From Verrucomicrobiota bacterium (GTDB taxonomy: Bacteria > Verrucomicrobiota > Verrucomicrobiia > Opitutales > Opitutaceae): 45,363 bases of DNA. Each line of letters starts with the position of its first letter. Position 1 is the first letter of the stretch. Made by a program: the position numbers and the translations under genes. The stretch covers positions 1 to 45,363 of the forward strand of contig VHCI01000014.1 in NCBI GenBank assembly GCA_016871775.1, written 5' to 3'. Shown here piece by piece: positions 5,662-13,110 of this stretch. The notes below the pieces were generated by a model, which was not told the origin of the DNA, did no database searches, and saw only the letters and a program-made list of their open reading frames with translations.

Positions 5662-6681
5662 TCAGAGGTCTTGGAGCGCGATGAAGGCGCCGCCGTGGAG
5701 GTAGGTTACAGTGCGCATCAAATTCGCGAAACGCAGCCCGGTGTTCCCCATCGAGAACTGGTAGCGGATGGTGGTGGGGAAGCCCACCGCGTTGATCGTC
5801 ACCGAGCGGGCGCCCTGCTCGTTGGCCGGGTTGAGCTCGTCCAGCCTGCGAATCACCTCGTCCGCCGACTGCGGCGAGTTGAACTCGTCCCCGAACACAA
5901 AGATCCCCATCCGCATCCCGGCGTTTTCTTTGTCGAAGAGGAAGCGCATCGCGTTGTAAATGCCGGGGACGGGATTGCTGACGGTGTCCTGGTCGTAACG
6001 GCGGAGCGTACGCTTGATGGCCTCGCGGGTCTGGGGCGAGTCCGGCAGCCAGCCGGCGGTGCCACTCGCACGGCGGCCGAGGATGAAGCGGCCGTCGCCG
6101 TCGATCAGCTGGATGCCCTGCACGTCGGGGTAGGCGTCGAGAACGGTTTCGATGGTGCGGATCACTACCGGCCAGAGGCCACCGAAGTTCGGGTCGCGCA
6201 TCGACCCGGAGGTGTCGACGACGAAGGCGAGGAAGTTGCTGCCCACGGGCAGTCCGACCGGAGCCGGTGGGACCTCCTTCAGCACCAGCTCGTGGTCGGG
6301 CTTGCGCTGCCGGGCGGCGATCTCCTTCCGCAGCTCGTCCAAGTCCACGAGAAGCGCCTGCTGGCCTCGTTTCTCCTGCTGGAGGCTGCGCTCCAGCTGG
6401 TCAATCATCGCCTGAAGCGAATCCTGGCGCCGGCGCGTCTCCTCCAGCCGGGGGACGATGCGCTGCTGGTCGCGCCGCGCCTCGATTTGGGCCGCCTCGA
6501 TCCGGGTCAGCGCCGCGGCTTGTTCCGCCAGGGCGCGCTGCAGCGCGAGCAGCACGTCGAGTTGCGCGCGCTGCCGGGAGCCGATGCTGATCACGAAGAT
6601 CAGGATGATCGCCCCGAAGCCGCAGCAGATGCAGTCGAGGAACGACAGGCTGAAGATCTCGCTTTGGCGGCGGCGAATCAT
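5662..6681 (-). CDS. Membrane-anchored coiled-coil von Willebrand A protein (intact MIDAS)
   Basis: A protein of 339 residues starting at ATG 6681, whose first four bases overlap the stop of the gene before it. Residues 10-33 are a transmembrane segment with the motif FLDCICCGFGA; Asp16 lies where ExbD/MotB proteins carry their proton-accepting Asp. Residues about 37-125 form a glutamine- and arginine-rich coiled coil. From about residue 150 there is a vWA domain with a complete metal-binding DTSGSM motif (Asp156) and a later FGDEF loop. It would sit in the inner membrane with the coiled coil and vWA domain outside the cytoplasm. It is the last gene of the four-gene channel operon and closely resembles the gene before it. 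Biological role unknown; the operon suggests it is a partner subunit of the ExbB-like channel. Confidence 0.88.
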   Translation of the reverse strand: MIRRRQSEIFSLSFLDCICCGFGAIILIFVISIGSRQRAQLDVLLALQRALAEQAAALTRIEAAQIEARRDQQRIVPRLEETRRRQDSLQAMIDQLERSLQQEKRGQQALLVDLDELRKEIAARQRKPDHELVLKEVPPAPVGLPVGSNFLAFVVDTSGSMRDPNFGGLWPVVIRTIETVLDAYPDVQGIQLIDGDGRFILGRRASGTAGWLPDSPQTREAIKRTLRRYDQDTVSNPVPGIYNAMRFLFDKENAGMRMGIFVFGDEFNSPQSADEVIRRLDELNPANEQGARSVTINAVGFPTTIRYQFSMGNTGLRFANLMRTVTYLHGGAFIALQDL

Positions 6682-7754
6682 GTGTCGGGCCAGGTTTTGG
6701 ACGGGCTCACGAGGGCGCCCTTGGTGGCGTTGGCCAGTTCCCAGAACAGTCCCGGGGCCCCGGGATCGCCGGTCAGGAGCGGGAACAGGATCGTGCTCAC
6801 CGGCACCCTCGGGGGCAACTGGCGCGCGGCGATCTCGAAGAAACGGACGCGGCTCGCCTCGTCGATGTCGCCCTCGAGCGCGAGGGAGTCGCTGCGGGTC
6901 GGCAGGCCGTCGGTGAGGAGGACGACGCTGTCGGGCAGCCGGGGGAGGGACCGGAGGGTGGCGAAGGCGCGTTCGAGGTTGGCGGGGCCCTTGGGGACGA
7001 TGGCGTTGAGCCGGGTGAGGATCTGGGTCATCGTCTCGCGGTCCTGCGGGTTGAACCACTCCTCGCCGCGCCCCGTCAGCAGGGGCACCGTCTCCTCGTT
7101 GAAGACGAGGATCTGGAAGCGAGTCCCGGACTCCAGCGCGGCCAGCATCCAGACCAGGGACTCGATCACTTTGCGCCATTTCGGGGCCTCCCGCTTTTTG
7201 TCGTCTGGATCGAGCAGCCGCGCCGCCGCCCCGTCGATGGTGTCGTCGAGCATCGAGCCGGAGGCGCGCAGCACGAAGACGACAAACTCCCCGTGCAGCT
7301 TCACGCCGGTAAGGTACTGGCGGCGGTCGATGTTGGGTACTGGTACCGGCGGGGGTTCGGCCTCGGTCGGGAGGTCCCGCTTCTCCCCCAAGAGGGTCTG
7401 CAGGGCGTCGCGGAGCGCGCCCGTCTGCTGCAGCATCAGAAGGAGCTCACGCCGGCGGTCGGAGATCCGGGTCTTGTCCTCCTCGACCCGTCGTTCGGCT
7501 TCCGTGAGGTCCTGGCGGGCCTGCGCTAAGGCGGCCGCCAGCCGGTCGAGGTCCTCCTGGTTGCGCTTCACCTCGGTCTGGATCTGACGCAACCGCTCGC
7601 GGGCGAGATCGACGTCCGCCTGGTCGACGTCACCTTTCTTCGATACGGTGAGCAGGAAGATCAGGAGCACCGCTCCGAAGCCGCAGCAGATGCAGTCAAG
7701 GAACGAGATACTGAACACCTCTGTCTGCCGTCGTTTCCGGGCCAGCTGGGACAT
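6678..7754 (-). CDS. Membrane-anchored coiled-coil von Willebrand A protein (degenerate MIDAS)
   Basis: A protein of 358 residues built like the following gene product: a short basic N-terminus, a transmembrane segment (about residues 14-37) with the same FLDCICCGFGA motif (Asp20), a coiled coil (about 42-126), a proline-rich linker, and a vWA domain from about residue 150. The metal-site motif reads RASGSM, with Arg163 where Asp is expected, while the later LLTDGLPT loop is kept, so metal binding may be lost or altered. Its stop overlaps the start of the second vWA gene (ATGA) and it begins 20 bases after the Hsp70-like gene. The two vWA proteins look like diverged duplicates that could form a heterodimer. 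Function is not known from the sequence. Confidence 0.87.
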   Translation of the reverse strand: MSQLARKRRQTEVFSISFLDCICCGFGAVLLIFLLTVSKKGDVDQADVDLARERLRQIQTEVKRNQEDLDRLAAALAQARQDLTEAERRVEEDKTRISDRRRELLLMLQQTGALRDALQTLLGEKRDLPTEAEPPPVPVPNIDRRQYLTGVKLHGEFVVFVLRASGSMLDDTIDGAAARLLDPDDKKREAPKWRKVIESLVWMLAALESGTRFQILVFNEETVPLLTGRGEEWFNPQDRETMTQILTRLNAIVPKGPANLERAFATLRSLPRLPDSVVLLTDGLPTRSDSLALEGDIDEASRVRFFEIAARQLPPRVPVSTILFPLLTGDPGAPGLFWELANATKGALVSPSKTWPDT

Positions 7755-7774
7755 CGCGGGTTGGCAGCGCTGGC

Positions 7775-9256
7775 TCAGGCCGGTCCGACCGTCGAGGGAA
7801 GGCAGCGCACGAGCAACAGCTCGGTCTTCTCGTCCCCAATCGCCAACTCAAGGCGGTCGCCCGCCGTCAATGGTGCGCCTGGCGCCTCCGAGCCGGCGAG
7901 GAGCCAACAGCCGCCCTCCTGCAGCAGGGTCCACGCGGGGGAACCTGCGGGCAGCGGCAGAGACAGGTCCGGTTCCGCGGACGGCGGCCCGAAGGTGAAC
8001 CGACGTTGGCGGGGCAGGGGATGGGCGAGTCCGCCCAACACTAGGTGGGTCGGGGCGCTTCCCGGAGTGCCCGGGCCGCCGCCCGCGACCCGCAGGCGCC
8101 ACGAGCCGGCGGGGATCGGCGTGACAAGGGCAAGATCGAGTTCGGTCCAGACCGGGACCTCAGCGAGGTCGGCGGGGGCGTCCGCCGACGAGTGGCCGAG
8201 CCGGGCGGCGCCCACGGCGGCCGCTGCGGTCGGAAGCCGCAGGAGGCGGGCGGGGGTCCCGGCGCGCAGCCGGGCCTCGAGCCCGGGAATCCGCGCGGCA
8301 CGGTCGGTCAGCGCCACGGTCCCGGGGGCTGGCCCCCCGTTCCGGCGGGCGAGCAGATCCTGCAGTCCCTGGGCGATGGTGGCGGCGACGCCGAGCGCGT
8401 CAGCGGCGAGCTGCTCCCGCTTGGCGTTCATCTCGTAGGTGCGCGCTCCCGTGCCGATGACGAACCGGTGCTCGGTCGCCTCTCCTTGGAGGAAGTCGTG
8501 GACTTGGCGGAAGAAAGCCTGCTCAACACGGCCGTCGGTAAGGATGTCAAAGGTGGTTTGCCGGAGGAAGCGATTGCCCAGCGCGGCCGTGAGCTGGCGG
8601 CGCAGCGCGGCGAGACCGGCTTGGGGCAGGTGCAGGTGGGCCGCGCGCGCGAGCCGGCCCGCGCGTGGTTGCAGCAGGGTGAGGTCCGCCCCAGTCAATC
8701 CGGCGTCAATGAGCACCACGGGCAGGGACGGGTCGCAGCCGGGACCGCGCGGGTCGCTCAGCGCGGCAAGCCCGGCGTCGACGACGCCGACGAGGGGCAG
8801 CTGCAGCCCGTGGGCTAAGCCGAGCAGTAGCCCGATCCTTTCTTCTTCGATCGCGGGGTCGCGGAGGTAGGCTCCGGGCACGGCCAAGACCACCCTTCCG
8901 GGTCGGCTCGCGGCGGGTTCTAGTCGGGCGAGGAACGCGCGCAGAAAAAGAAACGCCAGCTCCGACGAAGAGAGAGTCTTTCCGTTGACTTGCAGCGCCG
9001 AAGGGTCGTGGCCGAGGCGGGCCCAGAAGTGGAAATCGATGCGCCGTGGGTGTACGAACCACAAGTCCTCGGCGGCGCGGCCGAGCGTTATGGTTTTCCC
9101 GTCGCTGCAGGCATAACCGGGCCAGTCCCGGTTGCCCTGATGATCCGGGACAAAGAACGGTTGTGGGTCGATCCCAGCGGCGACGCCAAGGGCGGCCTCC
9201 AAACCTGCATCCGAAAGTTCCAGGCCGAGCGTGGGTATTGCTTGGGGCTCGCTCAC
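7775..9256 (-). CDS. Hsp70/actin-fold (ASKHA) protein with FHA-like C-terminus
   Basis: A protein of 493 residues starting at GTG 9256 (GTGA overlap with the upstream channel gene). The Hsp70-like fold is seen in VVLAVPGAYLRD, then LPLVGVVDAGLAAL (the connect-1 region), VVLIDAGLTGADLTL (phosphate-2 loop), and LTDRAARIPGLEARL with AAAAVGAARLG near residues 320-365. The first phosphate loop near residue 10 (LGLELSDAG) lacks the usual DxGTT form, so ATPase activity is uncertain. About residues 415-490 resemble a degenerate FHA domain (FTFG, DLSLPLP, then LTAGDRLELA and LLLVRC). No signal peptide or membrane segment is seen, so it should be cytoplasmic. Sitting between the channel gene and two vWA genes, it could be a regulator or assembly factor. 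It is clearly not DnaK itself: it lacks the substrate-binding domain. Confidence 0.8.
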   Translation of the reverse strand: MSEPQAIPTLGLELSDAGLEAALGVAAGIDPQPFFVPDHQGNRDWPGYACSDGKTITLGRAAEDLWFVHPRRIDFHFWARLGHDPSALQVNGKTLSSSELAFLFLRAFLARLEPAASRPGRVVLAVPGAYLRDPAIEEERIGLLLGLAHGLQLPLVGVVDAGLAALSDPRGPGCDPSLPVVLIDAGLTGADLTLLQPRAGRLARAAHLHLPQAGLAALRRQLTAALGNRFLRQTTFDILTDGRVEQAFFRQVHDFLQGEATEHRFVIGTGARTYEMNAKREQLAADALGVAATIAQGLQDLLARRNGGPAPGTVALTDRAARIPGLEARLRAGTPARLLRLPTAAAAVGAARLGHSSADAPADLAEVPVWTELDLALVTPIPAGSWRLRVAGGGPGTPGSAPTHLVLGGLAHPLPRQRRFTFGPPSAEPDLSLPLPAGSPAWTLLQEGGCWLLAGSEAPGAPLTAGDRLELAIGDEKTELLLVRCLPSTVGPA

Positions 9257-10104
9257 GCCGCAGATCCCTCCTCGCGGGTCGGCACCTTCATCACGTCGAT
9301 CACGGCGTCGCGGCAGTAGGTCTGCGTCTCGATGACCTGCGCCTCCTGCCGCGATTGCACGCCGTGCATCAGGTACATCAGTCCCATCGAGAGCACGAGG
9401 GCCACGAGGGTCGAGTTGAAGGCGAGGCCGAGCGCCTCGATCACCGGGCTAATGTCGCCCTTGATCGCCTGCTCGGCAAAGGCGAGGGCGAGGCCAATGC
9501 CGCGAACCGTGCCGATGAACCCGATGGCCGGAATGGCCCACGCGATGTAGCGCACGAGCGAGAGGGACGAATCGAGCCGGTCGGCTGCGAGCTCGGCACG
9601 TTCCTTCACGGCGTTGGCGGCGTCCTGCACCGAACGGGTGGCATGGAACCGGTGCAGCGCGGCGAGGATGCACTCGGGCAGGAGGCGGTCCCGCCAGCGC
9701 GAATCCCGTTCTACGCTGGCCTGGAGTTCTCGGTGGCGGTCGAGCGCGTCCTCAGGCAGGATGCGTTCCCCGGGCTGGAGGTGCACGAAGTCGAGCCGGA
9801 ACAGGCTGCGCTCGCGCCGCAGTTCCAGCAGTTTGTAGCCAAGAAGAAAGGTACCCCAGAGGGCGAAGATGATCTCAATCTGCTGCTCGGGATCCTTAAT
9901 GATGATGTGGAAAGAGCGCTGCTCCGAATTCACGGCGGTCGCCCCGCCGCGGGCTGCCATCACCCGCTGCTTCAGCTCGATCTCCGCGACGCGCGGGCGG
10001 ACAACGGTAGCGTAGTAGGGCTCCACGAGGGCGACGGCGAGCAGCAGGCCAAGGGCGGGGACGAGGAAGTCCGCAGATAGAACTCCCTTATTTCGGGTGG
10101 TCAT
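9253..10104 (-). CDS. MotA/TolQ/ExbB-family proton-channel protein
   Basis: A protein of 283 residues starting at ATG 10104. Predicted membrane segments are at about 12-34, 76-94, 183-209 and 221-246. The last two contain the family signature: IPAIGFIGTVRGIGLALAF, then LGLAFNSTLVALVLSM. A long cytoplasmic stretch lies between segments 2 and 3. Known relatives form pentamers around two ExbD/MotB-type subunits and use the ion gradient to drive rotation. No ExbD, TolR or MotB gene is nearby; instead the operon holds two vWA proteins with an ExbD-like transmembrane Asp. It is the first gene of the operon, and its stop overlaps the next start. A longer in-frame start at 10236 is rejected because it would run through the promoter region. 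Confidence 0.9.
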   Translation of the reverse strand: MTTRNKGVLSADFLVPALGLLLAVALVEPYYATVVRPRVAEIELKQRVMAARGGATAVNSEQRSFHIIIKDPEQQIEIIFALWGTFLLGYKLLELRRERSLFRLDFVHLQPGERILPEDALDRHRELQASVERDSRWRDRLLPECILAALHRFHATRSVQDAANAVKERAELAADRLDSSLSLVRYIAWAIPAIGFIGTVRGIGLALAFAEQAIKGDISPVIEALGLAFNSTLVALVLSMGLMYLMHGVQSRQEAQVIETQTYCRDAVIDVMKVPTREEGSAA

Positions 10105-10147
10105 AGGAAAGATTGGGTCGCGAGAGGGCGGCAGGCCCGAACCGCAG

Positions 10148-10175
10148 CTTATGATCGTTTCCCCGGAAAGTTCAA
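10148..10175 (-). promoter_or_regulatory. Candidate promoter of the channel/vWA operon
   Basis: On the minus strand TTGAAC (10175-10170) and CATAAG (10153-10148) are separated by 16 bases, giving a start about 37 bases before the ATG at 10104. The -35 lies inside a palindrome. The matches are four of six in each box. Confidence 0.45.
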
Positions 10176-10181
10176 ACTTTC
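10166..10181. repeat. Palindrome over the -35 box of the channel operon (possible operator)
   Basis: GAAAGTT (10166-10172), two bases, then AACTTTC (10175-10181): a perfect 7-bp inverted repeat with a 2-base centre. It overlaps the -35 element of the minus-strand promoter and sits about 40 bases from the plus-strand promoter of the neighbouring lipoprotein gene, a good place for a repressor or activator site controlling both. Confidence 0.5.
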
Positions 10182-10220
10182 GGCCCGAGCCGGGCCGCGG
10201 GGCCTTTTTTAACGCAAGGG

Positions 10221-10249
10221 TTGAATTCAAAAACATCTGCGGTTAGGAT
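10221..10249 (+). promoter_or_regulatory. Candidate promoter for the lipoprotein pair
   Basis: TTGAAT (10221-10226) and TAGGAT (10244-10249) are separated by 17 bases, about 40 bases upstream of the ATG at 10290. It diverges from the channel-operon promoter. Confidence 0.45.
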
Positions 10250-10289
10250 CGACGAATTAGCGTTGTTCAGTCCGACACCGATCCTCCCT

Positions 10290-10967
10290 ATGTCGTTTCC
10301 CCGCCCTCTCGGTACTCGTCCGGCGAAACGCCTCCTCGTCCCCTGCGGCTGCGCGCTCCTTTCCCTCGCGCTCCTCTCCGGCTGCCAATCGGGGGTCGCA
10401 CCGTCGAAGACGGCCACCGGGGCTGGCACTGGGGCGATGGTCGGCGCGGTCGGCGGCTCCGTTGTCGGAAGTAACAGCAGCATAGGTTCGGGCGCCGGTT
10501 TAGTGGGCGGCGCGGCCGCGGGCGCCCTGATTGGAGGAATCGTGGGGATGGTGCAGGATGCGAAGGATCGCCGGGAGCAGGACCGGCTCGCGCAGGAGCG
10601 GGCGTTCCAGCAGGACAAGGCCAAGAGGTTGCAGGAGGAGGCCAAGGCCAAGGCGGCGCTTGAGGAGGAGCTGGCCATCGCCGAAGGGTTCCGGATTTCG
10701 GACCTCGAGCTCAATGAGGCGAAGCGGAAGCTTGATTCCGCCGCCGACCGGCTCAAGCGGCTGCAAGGCGAGCGGAATGCCGCCCTAGCGAAGAAGAAGG
10801 AGCTCGATGATGCGCAGGCGAAGACACTCTCCACCGAGGCCGAGATCGCCCGGTTGGAGGAGGAGCTGGCGCGCCTCAAGGGCGAGACAGTCCCCGGAGC
10901 CCCTTTGCCCCCGAGCGAACCCGCCACCGCCGGCGCGCCACCCGTGCCCGGGCGTACGGGACCTTAA
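10290..10967 (+). CDS. Glycine-zipper, coiled-coil lipoprotein
   Basis: A protein of 225 residues starting at ATG 10290; an in-frame extension upstream runs through the promoter and is rejected. The signal peptide ends in a lipobox (LLSGC). A glycine-rich stretch follows (about residues 40-90, with repeated GAxxGAxxG spacing and hydrophobic residues), as in glycine-zipper outer-membrane proteins that insert into or span membranes. After this come about 110 residues of charged coiled coil rich in Glu, Lys, Arg and Ala, then a proline-rich tail. It is divergent from the ExbB/vWA operon across one shared regulatory region, and 12 bases upstream of a second lipoprotein gene. Specific function unknown; an envelope partner for the channel system is possible but only by position. 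Confidence 0.8.
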   Translation: MSFPRPLGTRPAKRLLVPCGCALLSLALLSGCQSGVAPSKTATGAGTGAMVGAVGGSVVGSNSSIGSGAGLVGGAAAGALIGGIVGMVQDAKDRREQDRLAQERAFQQDKAKRLQEEAKAKAALEEELAIAEGFRISDLELNEAKRKLDSAADRLKRLQGERNAALAKKKELDDAQAKTLSTEAEIARLEEELARLKGETVPGAPLPPSEPATAGAPPVPGRTGP

Positions 10968-10979
10968 CGCGCTCCCCCA

Positions 10980-11747
10980 GTGCGCCCGCTTTTGGCAGCC
11001 CGTTTTCTCGCCCTGATCGCGCTGGCTGCAGGGCTGTCGTTTCTTGGCGGCTGCGGGACCCCGGCGCACTCGGTCAAGGTCGATGCAATCTCGCGGCCGG
11101 CGCGCGCGGACGCCCAGTCCTACGTGCTGAGGTCCAAGGATCCGACCAAAGGCGAGGAGAACCTGCGCCACCGCGAAGCCTCGGACTTCATCCGCACCGC
11201 ACTCGCGGGCAAGGGGCTCTACGAGGCTCCCTCTGCCGAGCGGGCGGATATGGTGGTCGAACTCGACTACGGAATGGAGGCTCCGCGCTCGAAGATCGAG
11301 CGGGTGAGTGTCCCGGTTTACGCCCAAGTCGGCGGCGGGGTACGATATGATACGGTGCCCTCGACGGATTCCCGCGGCAATGCCACGCTCCGGACGGTGG
11401 CGGTGTACCAGCCGCCCCGGAACGAGATTGTTGGCTACGAGGAGGTCCCGCGGATGGTGACGGTTTACGAGAAGTACGTGCGCATTTCTGCCCGGGAGAA
11501 CCGTCCCGCCAGCGAAGGTCGGCCTCCCTCAGAGCTTTGGAGCATCCACGCCAGCACCGAAGACGAGAGCAAGGACCTGCGTAAGTACTTGCCGATTCTG
11601 GCCTCAGCCACGGTCGACTACATCGGGTCCGACACCTCGAGCCAGCGGACGGTTAAGGTCCGGGCCGACGGGGCCGACGTGGACTTCATCCGCCGCCGTG
11701 GCGCTGACCCCGCGCCGGCCCCGGCCGCCCCCGCGCGCGGTTCCTGA
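10980..11747 (+). CDS. Lipoprotein of unknown function
   Basis: A protein of 255 residues with a GTG start at 10980, 12 bases after the preceding gene. The signal peptide is strongly hydrophobic and ends in a lipobox (FLGGC). The body contains an N-terminal strand-helix region with TALAGKGLYEAP followed by ADMVVELDYGME, a pattern seen in DUF4136-like lipoproteins where an unfolded or multi-strand domain binds unknown partners. The C-terminus is rich in Pro and Ala. I cannot name a family with confidence. It is probably cotranscribed with the glycine-zipper lipoprotein, and the next gene, secG, follows after 72 bases. Confidence 0.75.
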   Translation: MRPLLAARFLALIALAAGLSFLGGCGTPAHSVKVDAISRPARADAQSYVLRSKDPTKGEENLRHREASDFIRTALAGKGLYEAPSAERADMVVELDYGMEAPRSKIERVSVPVYAQVGGGVRYDTVPSTDSRGNATLRTVAVYQPPRNEIVGYEEVPRMVTVYEKYVRISARENRPASEGRPPSELWSIHASTEDESKDLRKYLPILASATVDYIGSDTSSQRTVKVRADGADVDFIRRRGADPAPAPAAPARGS

Positions 11748-11819: not shown

Positions 11820-12224
11820 ATGAGTATCGTCCTCGGCATTCTGACGTTCATCCTGATCCTCGTTTCCGTCTTTCTGGTCCTGATTGTGCTGATGCAGAAG
11901 TCGAAGGACGGTGGAATTGGTTCCGCCCTAGGTGGGGGGGCCGCGGAGGCGGCCTTCGGCGCCGAGACCAACAACGTGCTCGTGCAGGCCACGAAGTATT
12001 CGGCGATCCTGTTCTTCGTCCTCGCCTTCCTGCTCTATCTGGGTCGCATTTCAGAGCGCAAGTTCGAGAAGGGCGCTGCCGGCGGCGCTCTCCCGAGCAT
12101 CACCGCCCCCTCGGCTCCGGCGGCCTCGACGGCTGCGACCCCTACCCCGGCGGTGGCCGTGCCGGCCACGGCGGCTCCGGCCACCGCCGCGCCGGCCCCG
12201 GCGCCCGAGGCGCCCAAAAAGTAA
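11820..12224 (+). CDS. secG: Preprotein translocase subunit SecG
   Basis: A protein of 134 residues starting at ATG 11820. Two transmembrane helices (about 5-25 and 55-75) flank the conserved SecG loop with [17 protein letters not shown]. SecG is the small, non-essential subunit of the SecYEG channel and assists SecA-driven export. The family is usually 75-110 residues; here an Ala/Pro/Thr-rich low-complexity tail from about residue 85 adds length, a common feature in high-GC genomes. It heads a short plus-strand run with the LolA-like and HAD genes, with a 13-base gap to the next start. Confidence 0.93.
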
Positions 12225-12237
12225 GCGTCGCTTCCGG

Positions 12238-13110
12238 ATGGGCCCGACCGTCCTTGTTCGGCCCGGTGTTTGGCGGTCGGGACTGGCTTTCATTACTTGG
12301 GGATTGCTTCATCTATCCGCGGCTGCCCCTAGCCGATCGCCCGAGCTCTCTCAGGCGGGTAACCCCAGTGAGGTGGAAGCCGCGCGGATTCTGGAGCGAT
12401 TCCGGCAGGCGGGTATCGCGGGCAGCTTTTATCTGGCCATCGAGTTGCGCTCCCTGCCCCGGCGAGGCGAGGAACGGGTGTTCCCGGGCCGTCTTTGGGG
12501 TGGCCGGGAGGCGGGTGGTCCCGTTTTCCGCCTCGAGGTCGAGGACGGCCAGGGTGAGGTGCGCCGTCTGATCCTGAGAAATGGGGTGGAGGGCGGGGTC
12601 TGGCGCTGGGCCGGCGCGCAGGTCGAGCAGGTGCCCCCAGCGGCTGCCGTCGCGCCGCTATTCCCCGGGGTGGAGGTCTCCGCCTTTGATGTGCAGATGC
12701 CCTTCCTGTACTGGCCGGAGGCGCAGCTGGAGAAGCTCGCCCGCGCCTTCGGCCGGCCCGCCTATTCCTACCTCTTCAAGGCACCGCCCGGCTTCCTTGA
12801 GCAGGGGGGAGGTTACGCCGCGGCCCGCGCCTACCTCGACACCCAGTTCAACGCCCTGATGCAGACCGAACTGTTGGCCGCCAACGGGGGGGTCCTGAAG
12901 ACCTTTTACCTCGTGAGCCTCAAAAAGGTCGGGGAACAGTACGTGCCCCGGCAGGCCGATTACCGCAACGAGCTCACCCGCGACAAGACGCGTTTTCAAG
13001 CCACTGCCGCCGCCCTCAACCTGTCGATCCCTGCCGGGGCCTTTGCGCCGGCGTCACTCGCGGAGCCGTGGTCGCCGCCCGCCGCCGCCCTCGTCCTACC
13101 CGTTGAATGA
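12238..13110 (+). CDS. Exported LolA-like outer-membrane lipoprotein-sorting protein
   Basis: A protein of 290 residues starting at ATG 12238, with an N-terminal signal peptide (about residues 1-30, ending SAAA). From about residue 40 an amphipathic helix (AARILERFRQAG) leads into repeated beta strands (GSFYLAIELRS, then FPGRLWG, VFRLEVED, RRLILRN), the half-barrel pattern of LolA/LolB and related periplasmic carriers. A VSAFDVQMPFLYWPE motif near residue 150 is seen in uncharacterised verrucomicrobial relatives. The likely role is carriage of a lipid or lipoprotein between membranes, but the family call is by fold pattern only. It is 13 bases after secG, and its stop overlaps the HAD gene start (ATGA). 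Confidence 0.6.
   Translation: MGPTVLVRPGVWRSGLAFITWGLLHLSAAAPSRSPELSQAGNPSEVEAARILERFRQAGIAGSFYLAIELRSLPRRGEERVFPGRLWGGREAGGPVFRLEVEDGQGEVRRLILRNGVEGGVWRWAGAQVEQVPPAAAVAPLFPGVEVSAFDVQMPFLYWPEAQLEKLARAFGRPAYSYLFKAPPGFLEQGGGYAAARAYLDTQFNALMQTELLAANGGVLKTFYLVSLKKVGEQYVPRQADYRNELTRDKTRFQATAAALNLSIPAGAFAPASLAEPWSPPAAALVLPVE

Follow-up and report, generated by a model that had tools for sequence, protein, structure and literature searches.

A conserved Verrucomicrobiota operon for a TolQ-like channel, a vWA protein pair and a pseudo-Hsp70 that probably forms an ion-driven motor

The subject of this report is an operon of four genes in a 45,363-nt stretch of contig VHCI01000014.1 (GCA_016871775.1, an Opitutaceae genome in 274 contigs); this whole stretch is referred to as the window. 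The operon encodes a TolQ/ExbB-like channel protein, an Hsp70-like protein and two membrane-anchored vWA proteins, vWA1 and vWA2. It is very likely that these genes encode an ion-driven motor, and we assign a probability of roughly 0.6 to the model that we favor as a whole, namely a proton-driven motor of the TolQ type that works with the vWA pair and has a pseudo-Hsp70 as its adaptor. The four genes form one unit, far beyond what chance would produce. They cover 10104 down to 5662 of the minus strand, and successive genes are -4, +20 and -4 bases apart. A first reading of the letters alone, which we call the original prediction, had described four overlapping or nearly abutting genes as one unit; all four reading frames are where it had placed them and the unit stands, and what it missed are two divergent lipoprotein genes immediately upstream.

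Conservation and co-occurrence of the four genes

We compared 57 distinct Verrucomicrobiota loci (the window, L030-L069 and L101-L116), no two of which have identical key proteins. All four genes are present in 44 of the 57 loci, in the same order and strand in every one of the 44, and the overlap between the vWA1 and vWA2 genes measures 4 bases in 41 of them; one locus counted among the 44, L067, has its vWA2 gene cut by a contig end. The original prediction had named a gene order kept in no other genome as the finding that would speak against it, and the opposite was observed. Seven of the 13 incomplete loci reach a contig end (L030, L032, L040, L045, L051, L068 and L069). In L114-L116 only the Hsp70-like gene is missing, and the channel and both vWA genes are kept. 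Three loci, L055, L106 and L113, are split, with parts kept elsewhere in the genome: in genome G044 the channel and Hsp70-like genes are on C10 and the vWA pair is on C13, in G205 the vWA2 gene is located on C43, apart from the rest, and in G206 the channel gene, on C173, is separated from the other three genes, which share C110. Behind the channel and Hsp70-like genes of L055 (G044 C10, 8117-10229) there are genes for a cytosine DNA methylase, a Vsr endonuclease and a PIN-domain protein, together with a weak ribbon-helix-helix match. With the vWA pair on another contig, L055 gives the impression that inserted DNA has split the operon. The unit keeps together in loci where the housekeeping neighbors of the window are not matched; within the fetched stretches, matches to those neighbors are confined to the nearest relatives, L030-L033, with secG in L055 as the sole exception.

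A survey of 288 genomes of Verrucomicrobiota, the phylum of the host, revealed a full-length channel relative in 18 genomes, at 18 places with an E value of 6.8e-50 or better, the next best being 3.6e-22; this cut-off was picked after the gap had been seen. Likewise, a vWA2 profile identified 18 of the 288 genomes, with two vWA matches in each, and the genomes with the channel and those with the vWA pair are the identical set of 18 (judging from the genome handles, both searches were run on the same draw). The Hsp70-like gene is found in 15 of these 18 motor genomes, the other three belonging to family f11. Within the genus of the host it is present in 25 of 27 genomes, the two lacking it being G019, which is 70% complete, and G022. 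The pairwise distances between loci correlate among the four proteins with Pearson coefficients of 0.93-0.99 (46 loci; 43 for the Hsp70-like protein). The gene set is found in the order of the host and also outside its class, in families f38 and f43. From this recurrence we take the machine to be probably of wide use in these groups, with single species doing without it.

Genome G033 carries two vWA pairs. Its contig C300 carries the complete unit a second time, in diverged form (L207, 6361-11036). This copy keeps the gene order, and its middle protein, which starts MKYLGIDLSD, matches the Hsp70-like profile with an E value of 2.2e-5 over its first 68 residues only and has no Pfam match.

Channel subunit and vWA pair

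The channel protein matches PF01618 (MotA_ExbB) with an E value of 1.7e-10, above the cut-off. The best match of its AlphaFold2 model (24 sequences, mean predicted local distance difference test (pLDDT) score of 84.2) is TolQ (8odt_A), with a Z score of 14.3 and a root-mean-square deviation (rmsd) of 4.2 over 208 residues, covering model residues 59-281. ExbB reaches Z scores of up to 12.7, ZorA 10.2 and flagellar stator chains 9.2 or less, all in a range, under about 13, that is possibly unspecific for helical proteins, and the Foldseek E values for this model are weak (best 3.7e-3). Residues 11-51 form an extra N-terminal helix before the TolQ-like core. Thr199 and Thr232 occur without exception in the 56 sequences compared and recur in four aligned other ExbB-family proteins, three of them from the same genome (the gene on C46 was left unaligned). 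The two essential Thr residues of TolQ, and likewise those of ExbB, have the same spacing of 33.

The host genome has five MotA/ExbB-family genes and four ExbD matches, none of the latter on the contig of the window, and PF02472 (ExbD/TolR) has no match in the four operon proteins. Thus, both the MotA/TolQ/ExbB channel and the absence of a nearby ExbD or TolR gene are as originally predicted. Three other channel genes of the host adjoin ExbD genes (on C105, C27 and C44), whereas that of the window does not, which argues that the unit is an additional, separate machine.

Given that the channel has weak partial ZorA matches in PADLOC (best E value of 9.3e-6, over 90 residues), a Zorya-like anti-phage system has to be weighed. 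However, the structure of the channel scores TolQ above ZorA, no ZorB and no ZorC, ZorD or ZorE was detected in the four operon proteins (E values up to 1) or in 10 flanking proteins (E values up to 0.001), and the unit is flanked by housekeeping genes, so that we regard this as highly improbable. Relatives of the vWA proteins were found neither on plasmids nor in phage records or viral contigs; one of these mobile-DNA searches matched 598 short stretches, none of which is a relative by tblastn. The PADLOC matches of vWA1 to JetC2 (E value of 6.6e-5, residues 46-123) and of the glycine-zipper lipoprotein described below to LeoBC (E value of 6e-7, residues 56-202) look like coiled coil or zipper only. 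Hence the tie to defense drawn in the original prediction found nothing beyond the weak ZorA matches, and a defense function is without support from PADLOC (operon and flanks), plasmids, phage records and viral contigs.

The plasmid matches H1-H3 are relatives of the channel only, and H1 pointed to a locus of interest. On the Rhizobium leguminosarum plasmid NZ_CP125637.1 (L193, 4521-7314), genes for a PP2C phosphatase, an FHA protein (E value of 1.3e-14) and a channel relative stand in a row that also includes a protein whose transmembrane motif, IEIFSMSVLDLFASALGG, is similar. L193 thereby connects FHA with this class of channel in a different phylum.

Each vWA protein has a basic N-terminus, one transmembrane helix, a coiled-coil-like stretch and a vWA domain. 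vWA1 matches PF13768 (VWA_3) with an E value of 3.2e-7, above the cut-off. vWA2 matches VWA_2 with an E value of 0.0012, below the cut-off, and its metal ion-dependent adhesion site (MIDAS) motif, DTSGSM, is intact; VWA_2 is matched by 8 of 17 broad vWA2 relatives at an E value of 0.01 or better (best 4.6e-5). A transmembrane Asp is conserved without exception, as Asp20 in 52 of 52 vWA1 proteins and as Asp16 in 47 of 47 vWA2 proteins, which bears out the earlier description of two single-span vWA proteins with Asp in the membrane. The two proteins differ at the metal site, which vWA2 keeps and vWA1 has mostly lost. The MIDAS Asp and the SGSM with both of its Ser residues are present in 47 of 47 vWA2 relatives, whereas in vWA1 the first MIDAS Asp is retained in 7 of 52 proteins, with Arg in its place in 38 and Glu in 7. 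Since the stretch of about 90 residues between the helix and the vWA domain gives weak matches to several coiled-coil families, it may form a coiled-coil stalk.

We consider it likely that the vWA pair sits in the channel pore. A profile of the vWA transmembrane segment aligns with the partners, likewise single-span, that accompany other TolQ-like channels, and the Asp residues fall in register (hhalign E value of 1.1e-10, with a bridging set from which L122_2974, probably an unrelated reading frame, was not removed). The same bridging set compared with ExbD gives an E value of 0.023 and a probability of 2%. Other TolQ-like channels, in L126, L128, L131 and L132, also have two single-span partners that differ from one another, their helices being of the LLLDTMCNTFGG type and the FQDI type; such unlike pairs may be common in the phylum.

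A motor core of this kind was predicted in 2025 (Mol Biol Evol; PMC12204202). The part of that paper on a second membrane-tethered vWA family (TPH-vWA; Fig. 4c,d; seed Idiomarina) describes tight co-occurrence with tolQ homologs and no tolR or exbD, with mostly heterologous pairs from Proteobacteria and Verrucomicrobia. A conserved Asp in the vWA helix was placed by AlphaFold3 in the TolQ pentamer, and a 5:2 proton-driven motor was predicted. For another vWA transducer family, the same authors name gliding as a possibility. The motor could thus be real and act at the cell surface, in adhesion or gliding, with the vWA pair on surface adhesins, all the more as vWA domains often bind adhesion ligands. 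However, no adhesin or gliding gene was recognized as a fixed neighbor in a search that used only the flanking genes of the window, and the recurrent neighbors that were found are two small lipoproteins, so we consider a role in adhesion or gliding unlikely.

Pseudo-Hsp70, divergent lipoproteins and layout of the locus

The product of the second gene matches no Pfam, NCBIfam or PADLOC family at an E value of 1 or better. A Foldseek search with its AlphaFold2 model (23 sequences, mean pLDDT 85.9) produced 407 matches at an E value of 0.001 or better, the best at 6.1e-19; among the best 50 of these 407, 49 bear titles that name a member of the Hsp70 family, by itself or in a complex, and the other is a ciliary apparatus. 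The model superimposes on the nucleotide-binding domain of mortalin (6p2u) with a Z score of 33.4 and an rmsd of 2.7 over 340 residues, and on chain 5mb9_B of the ribosome-associated complex with an rmsd of 3.5 over 357 residues; in this comparison (VIA), other actin-fold families were possibly crowded out of the matches listed. With regard to the substrate-binding domain with lid of Hsp70 proteins, the structure matches mostly cover residues 6-360. Built from 21 relatives, a profile matches the host's DnaK with an hhalign E value of 8.6e-8 over 294 columns, the best of 20 shuffles giving 0.088, and a narrower, genus-only profile gives no useful match to DnaK (E value of 0.023). In the profile alignment, the position of DnaK K70 is occupied by Trp in 17 of 21 relatives and by Lys in none, that of E171 is never Glu, that of T199 is Thr in 2 of 21, and that of D194 is Asp in 16 and Glu in 5. 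At the two adenosine-site GG positions, which lie past the aligned columns and were assigned by eye, Gly is found in 1 of 21 and 2 of 21. Given that the Hsp70 fold is kept while the catalytic K70, E171 and T199 are replaced, we named the protein pseudo-Hsp70. As modeled, the second gene encodes an Hsp70 nucleotide-domain fold without the catalytic residues.

The original prediction had described this protein as Hsp70/FHA-like. The Hsp70 fold was borne out; an FHA domain is detected by Pfam at the C-terminus of two of the 21 relatives, the distant L056 and L057 (E values of 2.8e-5 and 3.5e-4, above the cut-off), and not in the protein of the window. The pseudo-Hsp70 gene evolves fastest of the four (mean distance of 0.60, compared with 0.48-0.51), and in families f38 and f43 its product is shorter, at 268-418 residues.

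It is fairly probable that the pseudo-Hsp70 is a cytoplasmic subunit or adaptor of the motor. Alternatively, it could be a chaperone that acts on the vWA proteins or on a secreted client, folding or unfolding them. Its fold is that of Hsp70 chaperones, and Ssz1, which is among the top structure matches, presumably works without ATP hydrolysis. However, the catalytic residues are lost, the four operon proteins include no DnaJ or GrpE match, and the gene is missing in family f11, where the vWA proteins are kept; we therefore judge a chaperone system very unlikely. Another possibility is that the operon encodes a sensor and not a motor, in which the channel and the vWA pair would sense envelope stress and the Hsp70/FHA-like protein would relay the signal inside the cell. 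This would suit the FHA-derived domain that two relatives of the cytoplasmic partner have, as well as L193, where a related channel gene neighbors genes for a PP2C phosphatase and an FHA protein. It suits less well the invariance of the pore Thr residues and of both transmembrane Asp residues, as needed by an ion-driven machine, the lack of a detected FHA domain in the window protein, and the lack of a protein kinase or phosphatase domain among the Pfam-searched neighbors, which are few and mostly from the window. Taken together, a sensor seems improbable.

The two lipoprotein genes diverge from the operon. The glycine-zipper lipoprotein has a helical tail and a lipobox-like LSGC, and it matches Gly-zipper_YMGG with an E value of 1.9e-4, below the cut-off; the second lipoprotein, LP11, has a lipobox-like LGGC and is weakly DUF4136-like (E value of 0.012, below the cut-off). 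With the duplicate L100 left out, the gene for the former is divergent and adjoins the channel gene in 45 of 57 loci, and that for the latter is divergent beside the unit in 37 of 57. In the genome survey, LP11 is found in 12 of 288 genomes, nine of which have the motor (Fisher p 3e-10, uncorrected for relatedness). The glycine-zipper protein is found in 10 genomes, nine with the motor, at an E value of 1e-25 or better, a cut-off chosen after the results, and in 25 genomes at 1e-6. The lipoproteins are likely to be partners of the motor within the order of the host and not universal parts; that they form its outer-membrane partner is a more tentative proposal.

The coordinates of the features are collected in Table 1. 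The region between the divergent genes presumably holds the promoters of both units. Beyond the lipoprotein genes, on the upstream side, Pfam identifies secG, and downstream of the operon it identifies rpmF, plsX, fabH, a YfiO/TPR gene and an LptE-like gene; the annotated flanks of the unit are housekeeping genes. ARAGORN places a tRNA-Gln (ttg) at 12462-12537, within a long reading frame at 11932-13110 on the plus strand, and one of these two is probably not real. In other loci, a protein with PEGA and FGE-sulfatase (SUMF1-like) domains is encoded just upstream of the motor in G175 (L112, 4405-6501), and another with PEGA and FGE-sulfatase domains about 3 kb downstream of it in G043 (L057, 15805-17916); both were seen in a Pfam search of 10 neighbor proteins.

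Table 1. Positions of the operon genes, their protein features and the divergent genes in the window
Feature	Position	Strand	Remarks
TolQ/ExbB-like channel gene	9253..10104	-	283 aa; PF01618 MotA_ExbB
Pseudo-Hsp70 gene	7775..9256	-	493 aa; GTGA overlap with channel gene
Hsp70 nucleotide-domain fold, residues 6-360	8177..9241	-	predicted; model, structure matches, DnaK profile alignment
C-terminal beta domain, residues 385-488	7793..8104	-	predicted; model
vWA1 gene	6678..7754	-	358 aa; 20-base gap after Hsp70-like gene
vWA1 transmembrane helix, residues 16-37	7644..7709	-	motif FLDCICCGFGA; judged from sequence
vWA1 degenerate MIDAS RASGS, residues 163-167	7254..7268	-	sequence
vWA2 gene	5662..6681	-	339 aa; ATGA overlap with vWA1
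vWA2 transmembrane helix, residues 12-33	6583..6648	-	motif FLDCICCGFGA; judged from sequence
vWA2 intact MIDAS DTSGS, residues 156-160	6202..6216	-	sequence
Divergent intergenic region, 155 bases	10105..10259		from gene coordinates
Glycine-zipper lipoprotein gene	10260..10967	+	divergent, upstream of operon
Second lipoprotein gene (LP11)	10980..11747	+	divergent, upstream of operon

Proposed machine and comparison with known systems

The model that we favor is an inner-membrane motor of the TolQ/ExbB type, powered by the proton-motive force. We infer a 5:1:1 assembly in which five TolQ-like chains would form the channel and one vWA1 and one vWA2 chain would replace the TolR/ExbD homodimer, with their transmembrane helices in the pore. 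The published AlphaFold3 models, which place such vWA helices in a TolQ pore, are consistent with this arrangement (PMC12204202). Protons moving between the vWA Asp residues and the rings of Thr199 and Thr232 would turn or swing the vWA pair, and the coiled coil of about 90 residues would pass this motion on across the periplasm to both vWA domains. The grip may be vWA2, whose metal site is intact. The ligand would probably sit at the outer membrane; within the host's order, the two divergent lipoproteins are the strongest candidates for it. In the cytoplasm, the pseudo-Hsp70 may bind the channel as an adaptor or clutch, with a C-terminal domain putatively descended from an FHA-like phosphopeptide reader. 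The original prediction of an ion-powered envelope machine is thus supported as probable, with the vWA proteins in the place of ExbD and a partner of Hsp70 fold.

Several observations weigh against this model. G022, a genome of the same genus that is 100% complete, has no channel, vWA or Hsp70-like gene, which indicates that the unit is dispensable. The co-occurrence and the distance correlations are inflated by the relatedness of the genomes, and contig C110 of the split genome G206 ends 200 bases past the Hsp70-like gene, so that an additional channel gene there is possible. Three of the 18 motor genomes have no pseudo-Hsp70, and a shortened one is found in the five genomes of f38 and in G175; hence it is not indispensable. 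LP11 occurs in nine of the 18 motor genomes and in three genomes that have no vWA pair, and G056 and G206 keep the two lipoprotein genes together, yet on a contig apart from the motor genes. The vWA transmembrane helix shows no significant match to ExbD (hhalign E value of 0.21), a comparison that is weak as a test since one distinct ExbD sequence was used. Finally, the structure models obtained here are of single chains.

Taken further, the model possibly extends to a six-part envelope machine controlled from the cytoplasm, in which a dead Hsp70/FHA-derived protein would be the clutch or docking platform and a vWA heterodimer, asymmetric in that one metal grip works and the other is broken, would pull on a dedicated pair of outer-membrane lipoproteins; we offer this version tentatively. 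In either form, the predicted vWA motors gain a cytoplasmic partner and a candidate outer-membrane target, through which their function becomes testable. If the model is true, the Hsp70 fold has taken on a structural or regulatory role within a membrane motor and does not act as a chaperone here.

Among known systems, the unit is most readily compared with TolQ + TPH-vWA. As described in the section on that family, both have a TolQ-like gene linked to a heterologous vWA pair, a transmembrane Asp and Thr residues in the ring, and neither has tolR or exbD beside it, which was checked here in the host genome. Compared by description, the operon of the window shows the features of linkage, paired vWA genes, no adjoining ExbD gene, and Asp and Thr residues. 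The motor is therefore not of a new kind, given that its core of TolQ and a vWA pair has been predicted (PMC12204202). It differs in the Hsp70-like gene, the FHA domain, the divergent lipoproteins and the asymmetry of the vWA metal sites, which go unmentioned in the section on the family. The main text of that paper, figures and supplements aside, makes no mention of Hsp70 and mentions FHA in the name FhaC alone, and the open-licence literature yielded no report of an Hsp70-like gene in TolQ-vWA operons. Thus, of the machine presented as unknown in the original prediction, the channel and paired-vWA core is already published, and the pseudo-Hsp70, the divergent lipoprotein pair and the vWA metal-site asymmetry, none of which was found in print, appear to be new.

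The TolQR(A)-Pal and ExbBD-TonB systems share with the unit the channel fold, which is closest to TolQ, and the conserved pore Thr residues; here, in contrast, the partner is a vWA pair with no ExbD match, and the channel has an extra N-terminal helix. Zorya ZorAB likewise combines an ExbB-type channel with single-span partners in an operon, and it differs from the unit in that no ZorB, ZorC, ZorD or ZorE was found here and the context is one of housekeeping genes. The Hsp70 proteins DnaK, mortalin and Ssz1 share with the second gene product the fold of the nucleotide domain, with Z scores of about 33, and Ssz1 of the ribosome-associated complex is itself an atypical Hsp70 that is not known to act through hydrolysis. 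The window protein differs from them in that K70, E171 and T199 are replaced and that it is too far removed to match Pfam HSP70, and it is encoded in a membrane-channel operon, with a C-terminal domain that is an FHA domain in two of its relatives.

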